A stretch of 64,000 bases of DNA from Flavobacteriia bacterium. GTDB taxonomy: Bacteria > Bacteroidota > Bacteroidia > Flavobacteriales_D > Crocinitomicaceae. Positions within the stretch are counted from its first letter, which is position 1, and every line of letters begins with the position of its first letter. The position numbers and the translations under genes were made by a program. Under the pieces are notes generated by a model. It saw only the letters and a list, made by a program, of their open reading frames with translations, ran no database searches and had not been told where the DNA came from. Of the stretch, positions 21,221 through 25,229 are shown piece by piece. The stretch covers positions 1-64,000 of the forward strand of contig CANLGD010000003.1 in NCBI GenBank assembly GCA_947490145.1, in the 5' to 3' direction.

Positions 21221-21592
21221 TTATTTCTTAAAACTAATCGGTAAAACCATTTTAGATACAACTGGATTACCTTTAGCGTCTTTAGCTGGCGTCCATTTTG
21301 GCATTTTAGTAATAACATCTGTTGCACTTTTATCAAAATCTGCATCAATGCCTTTCAAAACTTTAACATCAGCAATTGAACCATCCGTTAAAATTTGAAA
21401 CTCAACATATACTTTACCTTCAATTTTTTTATTTTTTGGGTATTTCAAGCTTGTCTGAATGTAACTCATAAGAGCATCATTTCCAGTTGCATAACTTGCC
21501 TCAACACTTGGAGGGTTAGCTTGTTTTTCTACTTGAGCTGAGAGATTTGCTACGAAAAATAAAATTGAAAAGGCAAAAAATATTTTTTTCAT
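21221..21592 (-). CDS. Secreted protein with TonB C-terminal domain
   Basis: A 123-aa protein with a signal peptide (residues 1-19, cut after LSAQ) and a single TonB_C-like domain: SLKYPKNKKIEGKVYVEFQILTDG, VLKGIDADFDKSATDVITKMPKW and PISFKK. It lacks the membrane anchor and proline-rich spacer of a true TonB, so it cannot couple ExbBD energy by itself. Such free TonB_C domains are common in Bacteroidota and may bind receptors or peptidoglycan. The gene stands alone and converges on the DUF4834 gene. Confidence 0.8.
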   Translation of the reverse strand: MKKIFFAFSILFFVANLSAQVEKQANPPSVEASYATGNDALMSYIQTSLKYPKNKKIEGKVYVEFQILTDGSIADVKVLKGIDADFDKSATDVITKMPKWTPAKDAKGNPVVSKMVLPISFKK

Positions 21593-21803: not shown

Positions 21804-22211
21804 ATGAGAACAAATTCTTTATTTTTAATACTTACAATAATCTCAATTACCGTGTCTTGTAAAAAAGAAGCTGGTGTTGGCGGAAAAGCTTCGATTTCAG
21901 GTAAAATTTGGTATCAAGAATGGAATTCAAACTTTACAACTTTACAGCTAGAAAGAGAAGGTTATGACCAAGATGTATACATTCAATATGGTGATGAGAT
22001 TTCTTATGGAAATAGAATAAAAACAAGTTACAATGGGCGTTTTGAATTCAATTATCTAAGACCGGGAAAATATAAGGTTTACTGCTATTCAAAAGATCCA
22101 AGCGACAAAGACAATGTCAATCCGGATGCCATGATGGTTGTTTTAGATGAAATTGAAATTCTCGAAAAAGAACAAAAAATTGAATTAGACACCATGTTTG
22201 TTCTAAATTAA
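21804..22211 (+). CDS. Small lipoprotein with carboxypeptidase-regulatory-like fold
   Basis: A 135-aa protein with a lipoprotein signal: hydrophobic N-terminus and lipobox ITVSC, making Cys19 the lipidated residue. The body reads like a single beta-sandwich (ASISGKIWY...NGRFEFNYLRPGKYKVYCYSK), as in prealbumin-like domains of surface proteins. It opens a run of five same-strand genes ending with a DUF2490 protein. No function is known. Confidence 0.75.
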   Translation: MRTNSLFLILTIISITVSCKKEAGVGGKASISGKIWYQEWNSNFTTLQLEREGYDQDVYIQYGDEISYGNRIKTSYNGRFEFNYLRPGKYKVYCYSKDPSDKDNVNPDAMMVVLDEIEILEKEQKIELDTMFVLN

Positions 22212-22236
22212 TTTTAATAAACTTAAAAATTTCAAA

Positions 22237-22788
22237 ATGCTCAAATATTTTTATTCCCTAATTTTTATAGCTCTAACAGTTACATGTTTTTCTCAATCAA
22301 AAGGGAAAATTAAAAAATATAAAATTAAAAGTGTCACTGAAATTGCGATTGATTCTACCAACAAATCTCACACAGAATCTATCATTAAATTTGATTCAAA
22401 AGCAAACACTATTTTTGAAGAACAATTTTCTAAAAAAGGTAATTTAAAGAAAAAATACACAAAGAAATTCAATAAATATAATGAAATTGAAGAACACATA
22501 ATCTACAATGAAAAAAATGAAGTTTCTCTTATCATTAAAACAAAATATAAATTAGATAAACCAATTTTAATTTCTACTTCAAATTCTAAAGGGGAAATAA
22601 TTGAAGAAATAGAGATTAAATACAATGGATTTGGAGAAAAAATTGAAGAAATTAAATTTGATTCAAAACACATAGTAGTTCAAAAATCCATTTTTGAGTA
22701 CGACAAAAAAGGCTTAAAAACGTCCAAAAACACGTTTGATAGTTTAGGGAAATTAGTAGAAACAAAAATGTATACTTACGAATATTAG
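22237..22788 (+). CDS. Secreted protein with YD-like repeats, function unknown
   Basis: A 183-aa lysine-rich protein with a signal peptide (cut near TCFSQ). The body has spaced segments such as KKFNKYNEIEEHIIYN, KYNGFGEKIEEIKFDS and EYDKKGLKTSKNTFDSLGKL, which resemble the YD/RHS-type strand repeat. It is probably periplasmic or outer-membrane associated. It follows the lipoprotein gene by 25 bases and precedes the VTC gene by 15, so it belongs to the same operon. Confidence 0.65.
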   Translation: MLKYFYSLIFIALTVTCFSQSKGKIKKYKIKSVTEIAIDSTNKSHTESIIKFDSKANTIFEEQFSKKGNLKKKYTKKFNKYNEIEEHIIYNEKNEVSLIIKTKYKLDKPILISTSNSKGEIIEEIEIKYNGFGEKIEEIKFDSKHIVVQKSIFEYDKKGLKTSKNTFDSLGKLVETKMYTYEY

Positions 22789-22803
22789 TAAATCAATTTA
22801 ATC

Positions 22804-23565
22804 TTGAATTTAGAATTAGAAAATATATTAAATGAATTTGAGCCAATCGGTTTAAAGGATATGGATCGTGTTTCGTTAATGGATCGTATAGATGCAAAAT
22901 ATGTTTTTCACATTGAAGATTTGACTTCTTTATTGGATGAATTAAAAAAAGATTATGCAGTTTTGGATGTAAATGATACTAAAATTTCACAATACGAAAC
23001 ACTTTATTTTGATACTCCACAATTTGATTTATATCACTTCCATCAGCGAGGAAAATTCAATCGATTTAAATTCAGAATTCGAAAATACGTTGAATCGAAT
23101 TTATTGTTTTTTGAAGTGAAATTTAAAAATAATAAAGGAAGAACCAAAAAAAATAGAATTGTCAACGAAAACTTTGATTTTGAAGGCAACGAGATGATTA
23201 ATGACTTTCTACACAAAAATTCTCACTACGACATCAAACATCTGGAAGAGAAAATTTGGATAAATTATTCTCGAATTACACTTGTAAATAGAGAAATTGC
23301 AGAACGAGTTACAATTGATGTAAATTTACATTTCATGCATAATGAAATAAATAAAAGTCTAAAAGAATTTGTAATTGCAGAGGTAAAACAAGATAAGTCT
23401 GTTGATTCGCCCTTTGTAAAATTAATGCACAAATACCACATTCGAGAAGGATCAATTAGTAAATACTGTTTAGGAATAATGAATGTATACCCAGAATTAA
23501 GGTCAAATAATTTCAAACCTTTTCAAAATAATTTAAAAAAAATCGTCAAAAACCACGAGAATTAA
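22804..23565 (+). CDS. VTC-domain protein (polyphosphate polymerase-like)
   Basis: A 253-aa cytoplasmic protein of the VTC/CYTH-like tunnel fold. The N-terminus has RVSLMDRIDAKYVFH, typical for the VTC domain, followed by YETLYFDT, basic patches FKFRIRKYVES and EVKFKNNKGRTKKNR, and a late EVKQDKS. In yeast Vtc4 this domain makes polyphosphate from ATP; the bacterial relatives are not well characterised, so polymerase activity is inference. The start is TTG, which keeps the conserved N-terminal helix. A DUF4956 gene follows, a known neighbour pairing. Confidence 0.82.
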   Translation: MNLELENILNEFEPIGLKDMDRVSLMDRIDAKYVFHIEDLTSLLDELKKDYAVLDVNDTKISQYETLYFDTPQFDLYHFHQRGKFNRFKFRIRKYVESNLLFFEVKFKNNKGRTKKNRIVNENFDFEGNEMINDFLHKNSHYDIKHLEEKIWINYSRITLVNREIAERVTIDVNLHFMHNEINKSLKEFVIAEVKQDKSVDSPFVKLMHKYHIREGSISKYCLGIMNVYPELRSNNFKPFQNNLKKIVKNHEN

Positions 23566-23602
23566 TACTTTTGACAAATAAATTAAAAAATTAATTAAAA
23601 TT

Positions 23603-24208
23603 ATGTTTTTACCACAATTAGTGCTAGACACAACACTTTTCTCACAAGCTAATGTTTTAGAATTCGCTTTAAGATTACTTGTGAATATGGTTTCATGTTT
23701 TGTTTTAGTAAGATTTATATATTATCCTGTTTATAAAAATCGTGAATTCTTTTTCACTTTTACTATTTTTAATTTACTCATTTTCTTAATCATATTCTTA
23801 CTTCAAAAAGTAGAAATGAGCACTGGTGCTGGTTTTGGACTCTTTGCAGTTTTTAGTATGTTACGTTATCGCACTGAAGGGTTATCGATGAAAGACATGA
23901 CTTATTTGTTTTTGGTAATTGCTTTAGGATTTATTACTGCTGTTGGCCCTGGAGAATTTTGGCATGTTGCAATCATAAATGGTGTCATTTTATTCCTAAC
24001 TTATTTAATGGAAAGCAGCTTATTGCTCAAAAAAGAATTTTCAAAAATAATTCAGTATGAGAATATTGAGTTAATAAAACCTGAACTTCGAAATGAGTTA
24101 ATTGCAGATTTGGAAGCTAGAACTGGCTTGAAAATCAATCGAATCACCATCGATCGAATTGATTTTTTGCGTGATACAGCTTTATTAACAGTGCATTACA
24201 ACGATTAA
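23603..24208 (+). CDS. DUF4956 membrane protein
   Basis: A 201-aa inner-membrane protein. The N-terminal half has four to five hydrophobic helices (for example LLVNMVSCFVLVRFIYYPVY and FTIFNLLIFLIIFLLQ), with the conserved GFGLFAVFSMLRYRTEGLSMKDM linking them, and the C-terminal 60 residues form a soluble domain. DUF4956 proteins are commonly next to VTC-domain genes, as here, and may form the membrane partner of the VTC protein. That role is inference. Confidence 0.82.
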   Translation: MFLPQLVLDTTLFSQANVLEFALRLLVNMVSCFVLVRFIYYPVYKNREFFFTFTIFNLLIFLIIFLLQKVEMSTGAGFGLFAVFSMLRYRTEGLSMKDMTYLFLVIALGFITAVGPGEFWHVAIINGVILFLTYLMESSLLLKKEFSKIIQYENIELIKPELRNELIADLEARTGLKINRITIDRIDFLRDTALLTVHYND

Positions 24209-24211
24209 AAG

Positions 24212-24865
24212 TTGAAAGTAATCAGTTTTATAGTTTTCTTAATAATCTCGGCAAACGGATTATTTGCCCAAACAAGAGATTTTGGTATTTGGACAAATTT
24301 ATCTTTGGGAAAAAAAGTAAATAATCGATTGGATTTTACCTTGACCGAATCTGTTAGATTCGATGAGAATGCAACTCAACTTGCTCAACATTTAACAAGT
24401 TTAACTGCAAGTTTCAAAATCACAAAAAAACTATCAGTTTCTTCTACTTTGCGTTACGCTCAAAAATTTAAATACGATAAAAGCATTAATTTAAAGTCTC
24501 GTTTTCAGATTGGATTTCTTTATAAAGTAAGGATTAAAAATCTAGGAATTAATTTAGAAGAACGATTTCAAAGTCAATTGACGAATGTTAAAAGAGTTGA
24601 CAATTGGGAAATTCCATCCAATTATATGAGAACTAGAATTACTGTTAAATACGATTTCAAAAAGAAAATTGAACCTTTCTTTTCAACAGAATTATTTTAC
24701 AATGTTGGAGTAAATTTTGACAATTTAAGAAGTCGATTAGGATTTTCTTATGAAATTGACAAATTTCAAAGTTTCAAAGTTTTTTATATGATCGACAAAG
24801 AATTCAATGTTAAAAATCCAAGTACAAATTATATTTTAGGACTTGGGTATAAATTCTCATTTTGA
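24212..24865 (+). CDS. DUF2490 outer membrane protein
   Basis: A 217-aa protein with a signal peptide (cut after NGLFAQ) and a body of alternating beta-strands ending in LGLGYKFSF, whose terminal Phe is typical of outer-membrane barrels. The start FGIWTNLSLGKKVNNRLDFTL fits the DUF2490 family. The start codon is TTG, 3 bases past the DUF4956 stop, so it is translationally coupled. It ends the envelope operon. Confidence 0.8.
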   Translation: MKVISFIVFLIISANGLFAQTRDFGIWTNLSLGKKVNNRLDFTLTESVRFDENATQLAQHLTSLTASFKITKKLSVSSTLRYAQKFKYDKSINLKSRFQIGFLYKVRIKNLGINLEERFQSQLTNVKRVDNWEIPSNYMRTRITVKYDFKKKIEPFFSTELFYNVGVNFDNLRSRLGFSYEIDKFQSFKVFYMIDKEFNVKNPSTNYILGLGYKFSF

Positions 24866-24891
24866 GATTTGGATAAAAAACATTACTTTTG
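24861..24891 (+). promoter_or_regulatory. Consensus Bacteroidota promoter
   Basis: TTTG (24861-24864), a 19-base spacer and TACTTTTG (24884-24891) match the TTTG-N19-TAnnTTTG consensus exactly. The -33 box overlaps the end of the DUF2490 gene. It drives the small gene at 24910. Confidence 0.8.
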
Positions 24892-24909: not shown

Positions 24910-25167
24910 ATGGCAAGTAAAAGAAAATTCAAAAGAGAACTAAATTATATGGTTTTTGACGTTATCGAAGAATGTTTTAGCGTACAACTTTACGATGAGA
25001 AAAAAACAGAAGTTACAAATCAATTAATTGACGAAGTAATTGAATTTAGAAATAAAATGGCTGCTAAAGTTCATGCGTCAAAATCTAAAAAAGATTTTAC
25101 TGCTTTAAATATAGAAGTAGAAGATGCAGCTGTTGATTTTATCCATAAAATTAATGGTTTACACTAA
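24910..25167 (+). CDS. Conserved small protein of unknown function
   Basis: An 85-aa soluble, mostly helical protein (KRKFKRELNYMVFDVIEEC at the start). I recall similar short proteins in Bacteroidota but know no function. It has its own exact-consensus promoter and a strong terminator, so it is a real monocistronic gene and likely well expressed. Confidence 0.75.
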   Translation: MASKRKFKRELNYMVFDVIEECFSVQLYDEKKTEVTNQLIDEVIEFRNKMAAKVHASKSKKDFTALNIEVEDAAVDFIHKINGLH

Positions 25168-25196: not shown

Positions 25197-25229
25197 AAAA
25201 AACGGGTTGAATTTCAATCCGTTTTTTTT
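25197..25229 (+). terminator. Terminator of the 85-aa protein gene
   Basis: AAAACGGGTTGA and TCAATCCGTTTT pair around ATT, followed by a T-run. It lies 30 bases after the stop codon. Confidence 0.9.

Follow-up and report, generated by a model that had tools for sequence, protein, structure and literature searches.

The window analysed here, a stretch of 64,000 nucleotides of DNA from a Flavobacteriia bacterium (contig CANLGD010000003.1), carries a compact run of five genes encoding a lipoprotein, a secreted YD/MORN-like repeat protein, a VTC-domain protein, a DUF4956 membrane protein and a DUF2490 protein (Table 1). The gaps between them measure 25, 15, 37 and 3 bases from 5' to 3', and a terminator search found no terminator-like site inside the run. 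An earlier, sequence-only reading had described five same-strand genes with short gaps and named the VTC, DUF4956 and DUF2490 members, all of which is borne out by the open reading frames and Pfam matches. In the Pfam scan, the first two genes gave no family above the cut-off. Nevertheless, the labels they had received hold up: a lipobox-like cysteine (Cys19) is invariant in 28 aligned lipoprotein members, and the YD-like character of the second gene is weak but real, with RHS_repeat matches in 7 and MORN_2 matches in 4 of 27 aligned members.

Table 1. Features of the operon and its flanks (window positions)
Feature	Position	Strand	Length	Remarks
Small secreted protein	21221-21592	-		Signal peptide and TonB C-terminal domain only (TonB_C 1.6e-15)
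Lipoprotein	21804-22211	+	135 aa	Family without Pfam entry
YD/MORN-like repeat protein, secreted	22237-22788	+	183 aa	
VTC-domain protein	22804-23565	+	253 aa	TTG start; Pfam VTC 2.1e-29
DUF4956 membrane protein	23603-24208	+	201 aa	Pfam DUF4956 3.9e-54
DUF2490 protein	24212-24865	+	217 aa	TTG start; Pfam DUF2490 7.6e-21
Promoter match, Bacteroidota form	24861-24891			TTTG-N17-23-TAnnTTTG
Small uncharacterised gene	24910-25167		85 aa	Directly 3' of the operon
Terminator-like hairpin	25197-25227			Downstream of the small gene

The end of the unit was placed at the DUF2490 stop, because the small gene that follows has its own promoter match and was not seen in relatives' cassettes. This promoter match is only suggestive, since the window contains 15 matches to the form where 9.35 are expected.

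The VTC protein belongs securely to its family (PF09359), scoring 103 bits against a cut-off of 23 and covering profile positions 2-233 of 235. A profile built from 12 VTC relatives matches the yeast Vtc2 and Vtc4 structures in the PDB (2e-4 and 2e-3). Residues were mapped onto Vtc4 with the PDB chain numbering shifted by 185, which places Vtc4 K200, R264, R266, E279, K281, E426, K428, S457 and K458 at K32, R91, R93, E104, K106, E193, K195, S219 and K220; these nine are kept in 57-58 of 58 aligned VTC proteins. Among them are the four positions by which a polymerase was judged (Vtc4 R264, R266, E426 and K458). In yeast, the R264A/R266A/E426N protein is catalytically impaired (PMC9911596) and K458 is the catalytic lysine (PMC4641920). 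The position of Vtc4 R196 is also basic (R28, kept within the range of 55-58 of 58), as are R157 (58/58) and R168 (55/58), aligned by eye to Vtc4 R361 and R373. The basic tunnel residues to which the sequence-only reading had tied its case are therefore not lost, except at the position of K455, which is Ser in most relatives; for K294, the alignment is uncertain.

Triphosphate-tunnel (TTM) enzymes have varied activities, and the hydrolases among them carry an acidic patch (PMC4641920). By inferred position mapping, two positions of this patch are basic as in Vtc4 (K195 and R28), with Lys195 sitting where the hydrolases have a Glu two residues past the metal-binding Glu, and a third is acidic, namely D30, which is invariant and lies where Vtc4 has Thr198. 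The protein is described here as a putative polyphosphate (polyP) polymerase of the triphosphate-tunnel type.

The predicted DUF4956 structure (AF2 pLDDT 90.6) shows about five helices and, at the C-terminal end, an ACT/ferredoxin-like domain of beta-alpha-beta-beta form, in line with the published Streptococcus homologue, for which four membrane segments and an ACT domain were described (PMC12345266). A Foldseek search of the model against the PDB gave no match at E<=0.001. The relation to MgtC published for the Streptococcus homologue (PMC12345266) is only hinted at here, by one relative at E=0.001, below the cut-off, and no MgtC was found in the window's own genome.

DUF2490 is a probable outer-membrane beta-barrel, with a signal peptide recognisable by eye and a very weak resemblance to the porin KdgM only (E=0.039). 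Average net charge per 100 aa is higher in cassette-linked than in unlinked DUF2490 proteins (4.5 vs 3.0, P=0.004). A basic charge could mark a pore for a polyanion, but this indication was rejected and not counted, as linked and unlinked copies inside the same genomes show no consistent difference.

The lipoprotein family shares the signature C-x(4)-G-x-G-G, in which C19, G24, G26 and G27 are invariant. It gives only weak prealbumin/fn3-like matches. The model is an all-beta, transthyretin-like sandwich (AF2 pLDDT 91.5), and its nearest Foldseek matches are PA1324 (8.9e-5) and transthyretin-related proteins. In five loci the lipoprotein gene is about twice the usual length and encodes two tandem copies of the domain, while in four others it is located after DUF4956. 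The YD-like protein has a basic pI of 9.35, and a signal peptide is recognisable by eye at its N-terminus.

Gene order was followed in two ways. Profile searches of 148 genomes of the phylum Bacteroidota (sample 1) found VTC in 29, DUF4956 in 45 and DUF2490 in 55. DUF4956 matches formed a strong group (155-190 bits), present in 13 genomes including the window's own, and a weak group (40-74 bits); strong-group DUF4956 adjoins VTC in 12 of the 13. In one genome that carries neither VTC nor CotH, two uncharacterised secreted proteins are encoded after a strong-group DUF4956.

A scan of named genomes yielded 80 loci, dereplicated for counting, with names including Cytophagales, Chitinophaga-labelled metagenome-assembled genomes (MAGs), Flavobacteriales, Bacteroidales and Tannerella. 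VTC lies immediately upstream of DUF4956 in 66 of 67 dereplicated loci, and DUF2490 lies at most two genes downstream of it in 50 of 69, being absent from about a quarter. In the 56 loci with at least four genes upstream, the lipoprotein was found in 27, the YD-like gene in 28 and a CotH gene within the locus in 26. The exact order lipoprotein-YD-VTC-DUF4956-DUF2490 seen on one strand in the window recurs in 16 of these 56, a minimum of 16 dereplicated loci. Its genes are very closely spaced or overlap, and the orders represented are Cytophagales, Chitinophagales, Flavobacteriales and Bacteroidales. As the same order returns in such divergent genomes, the arrangement is more than chance, and it extends across orders of Bacteroidota, well beyond close relatives. 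Runella zeae has the order CotH-VTC-DUF4956-DUF2490. Records of Calditrichaeota, Thioploca and Haliea likewise contain the VTC-DUF4956 pair. An apparent fusion of the two in Bacteroides cellulosilyticus is doubtful and was set aside, with 48 masked bases (X) between both parts.

The large genes upstream of many cassettes are CotH genes, whose products frequently carry lamin-tail and type IX sorting domains, and the tie between VTC and CotH extends to whole genomes. CotH is present in 29 of 29 VTC genomes of sample 1 versus 60 of 148 overall (P=2e-14; 4e-8 by genus, 5e-5 by family), and in 6 of 7 VTC genomes versus 19 of 232 overall in a second sample around the Haliea record (P=9e-7), with shared ancestry only partly removed from these values. 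In a further set of 33 genomes, picked mostly for non-adjacent CotH but including two loci with an adjacent copy, CotH was found somewhere in the genome in 30. VTC thus occurs almost only where a CotH gene exists. Bacteroides and a few others break the rule: VTC or cassette genomes without CotH are Bacteroides cellulosilyticus, the control B. ihuae, two MAGs and the genome G317. Seven CotH matches were found in the window's own genome, all of them away from the operon, and both of the two proteins scanned carry type IX sorting domains. One CotH gene of this genome (contig C88, positions 214-1346) is split into two overlapping reading frames, and may therefore be frameshifted or misassembled. 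Elsewhere, four loci encode a divergent CotH joined to a beta-helix/pectate-lyase-like domain beside VTC and DUF4956.

This co-occurrence speaks for a rival explanation, in which VTC-DUF4956 chiefly supplies secreted CotH kinases with an activated phosphate compound that it makes or delivers, be it short polyP, pyrophosphate or a nucleotide derivative, and no long polymer is formed. Such a donor is proposed because ATP is not expected outside the cell. The near-obligate presence of CotH with VTC in two samples and their operon linkage agree with it, as does the control B. subtilis, whose CotH works within the mother cell and which lacks both VTC and DUF4956. Against it, no CotH is detectable beside VTC-DUF4956 in the genomes of Bacteroides, G317 and B. 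ihuae, and 31 of the 60 CotH genomes of sample 1 lack VTC. We consider this explanation somewhat improbable, though the strongest of the alternatives.

Evidence of another kind comes from lineages outside the Bacteroidota cassette, where outer-membrane REPLACEMENTS and phosphate neighbours of VTC-DUF4956 recur. For example, the gene after DUF4956 encodes the phosphate-selective Porin_O_P in Thioploca, Haliea and Pseudoalteromonas records (2e-70, 2e-47 and 5e-43 in these three gammaproteobacterial records). One genome (G264) has the order DUF4956-HlyD-OEP-VTC, with OEP a Pfam match, while G317 and G443 have DUF4956-HlyD, a gene without Pfam match at the OEP position, then PHO4 and VTC. This last gammaproteobacterial cluster, DUF4956-HlyD-OEP-like-PHO4-VTC, has the look of a tripartite exporter to which a polyP-polymerase-type enzyme and a phosphate transporter have been added. 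On plasmids of Aminobacter and Shinella, a phytase-like gene comes after DUF4956-VTC; in Nitratireductor, an inorganic phosphate transporter and the phytase-like gene do so. These alphaproteobacterial plasmid arrangements account for four loci. Deinococcus taeanensis has CotH-VTC-DUF4956. These contexts are independent of the cassette and point to phosphate and a route across the envelope; the alternative outer-membrane parts, phosphate transporters and phytase-like genes favour a phosphate-type product that crosses it.

They also weigh on a second rival, according to which VTC acts as a hydrolase of the tunnel type or as a nucleotide-binding sensor and, together with DUF4956, regulates the assembly of envelope polysaccharides or surface proteins, and nothing phosphate-rich is exported. 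The varied activities of TTM enzymes (PMC4641920), the ACT-like C-terminus of DUF4956 and the altered Pel level and aggregation of Streptococcus intermedius DUF4956 and CotH deletions (PMC12345266) are all compatible with this. However, VTC keeps its polymerase-type basic residues, and phosphate porins, transporters and outer-membrane pores are recurrent neighbours, which leaves this reading unlikely. A third possibility, in which VTC-DUF4956 functions as a pair and the lipoprotein, YD-like and DUF2490 genes form an unrelated surface operon travelling along, is very improbable: the accessory genes do vary, with the lipoprotein and YD-like genes each in only about half of the 56 loci, but the exact five-gene order recurs with tight spacing in several orders, and other outer-membrane parts replace DUF2490 elsewhere.

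The explanation that fits best, though we hold it at even chances, is that the cell makes a phosphate polymer and moves it out of the cytoplasm. The operon would then correspond, in a small bacterial form, to the VTC complex of eukaryotes, but would reach across the outer membrane as well. On the cytoplasmic side, VTC would use ATP to polymerise phosphate in its basic tunnel. DUF4956 would anchor VTC and thread the lengthening chain across the inner membrane, its cytoplasmic ACT-like domain serving as a docking or sensing part. DUF2490, or elsewhere Porin_O_P or HlyD-OEP, would provide the outer-membrane exit, with the lipoprotein and the basic YD-like protein as possible periplasmic or surface helpers; export across the envelope by the cassette is thus a prediction. 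In most lineages, the exported phosphate or polyP might serve surface CotH kinases as phosphoryl donor or be used for surface-polymer modification. This CotH step, taken alone, is tentative and clearly less probable than export from the cytoplasm. The complete scheme, a bacterial system exporting polyP through both membranes as phosphoryl donor for secreted CotH kinases, is doubtful as a whole.

Several findings count against polyP export: the acidic D30, the Ser at the K455 position in most relatives, the position of CotH outside the operon and its absence from some cassette genomes, the lack of DUF2490 at about a quarter of loci, and the S. intermedius VTC deletion, which, unlike those of DUF4956 and CotH, has no reported aggregation phenotype (PMC12345266). 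To these is added PPK1, present in 135 of the 148 genomes of sample 1. It occurs in 27 of 29 genomes with VTC and 108 of 119 without (no association, P=1), so bulk polyP does not need VTC; the idea that VTC substitutes for PPK1 was rejected on these counts. No enzymatic or export assay of these bacterial proteins was found in the openly licensed literature.

The sequence-only reading had suggested a machine spanning the envelope, perhaps making or exporting a phosphate-rich polymer, and had called the system under-described. This interpretation is supported in part. The envelope operon and its under-described status both hold, because gene order is conserved phylum-wide, VTC retains its tunnel residues, and in other lineages DUF2490 gives way to unrelated outer-membrane parts. 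The strong genomic tie to secreted CotH kinases lay beyond what that reading could see. The phosphate polymer itself is suggested by homology and phosphate-related neighbours.

In summary, a compact and widely conserved operon ties together a polyP-polymerase-type enzyme, an inner-membrane protein, a probable outer-membrane pore and, through co-occurrence, secreted kinases. Four families (DUF4956, DUF2490, the lipoprotein and the YD-like protein) gain a common working hypothesis. The cassette makes two questions testable, namely by what route polyP might exit bacteria and how secreted kinases could work where ATP is not expected. If the proposal is true, polyP-fed CotH would give bacteria an ATP-independent phosphorylation of surface proteins.

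Among the closest known systems is the yeast VTC complex (the Vtc4 TTM domain with the membrane parts Vtc1/Vtc3): it shares the PF09359 domain and tunnel residues with the window's protein, and both pair a VTC domain with a small multi-helix membrane protein. In yeast, polyP synthesis by this domain type takes place in the cytosol and is coupled to translocation across a membrane (PMC9911596). In contrast, Pfam scans found no SPX or DUF202 domain in the VTC or DUF4956 proteins, the membrane partner is DUF4956, and outer-membrane and secreted parts are added. PPK1 has the proposed product, polyP, in common with the cassette but belongs to a family unrelated to VTC. The OprP/OprO phosphate/pyrophosphate-selective porins (Porin_O_P) occupy the place of DUF2490 beside DUF4956, although DUF2490 is a different family. 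Bacteroides thetaiotaomicron VPI-5482 carries DUF4956-DUF2490 at BT3498-3499, and BT3498-99 are listed together in a Bacteroides iron-response table (PMC10434189).

Close in gene content is the CotH-polyP polymerase-DUF4956 trio of Gram-positive pel loci (PMC7112168, PMC12345266). The same three families and the same proposed phosphate link are found there, whereas no pel genes were seen beside the window's cassette, which takes a Gram-negative five-gene form with lipoprotein, YD-like protein and DUF2490. The analysis in the S. intermedius study turned up no such trio beyond pel loci (PMC12345266); here, CotH-VTC-DUF4956 is seen in Deinococcus and widely in Bacteroidota, which makes its distribution much broader. 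In the openly licensed papers, neither the five-gene cassette nor the rule that VTC implies CotH across genomes nor the other outer-membrane partners were found described. Already known are the VTC family, the polymerase activity it has in yeast, and the occurrence of the trio next to pel operons (PMC9911596, PMC7112168, PMC12345266), while the genome-level tie between VTC and CotH and the other outer-membrane parts beside VTC-DUF4956 are new here.
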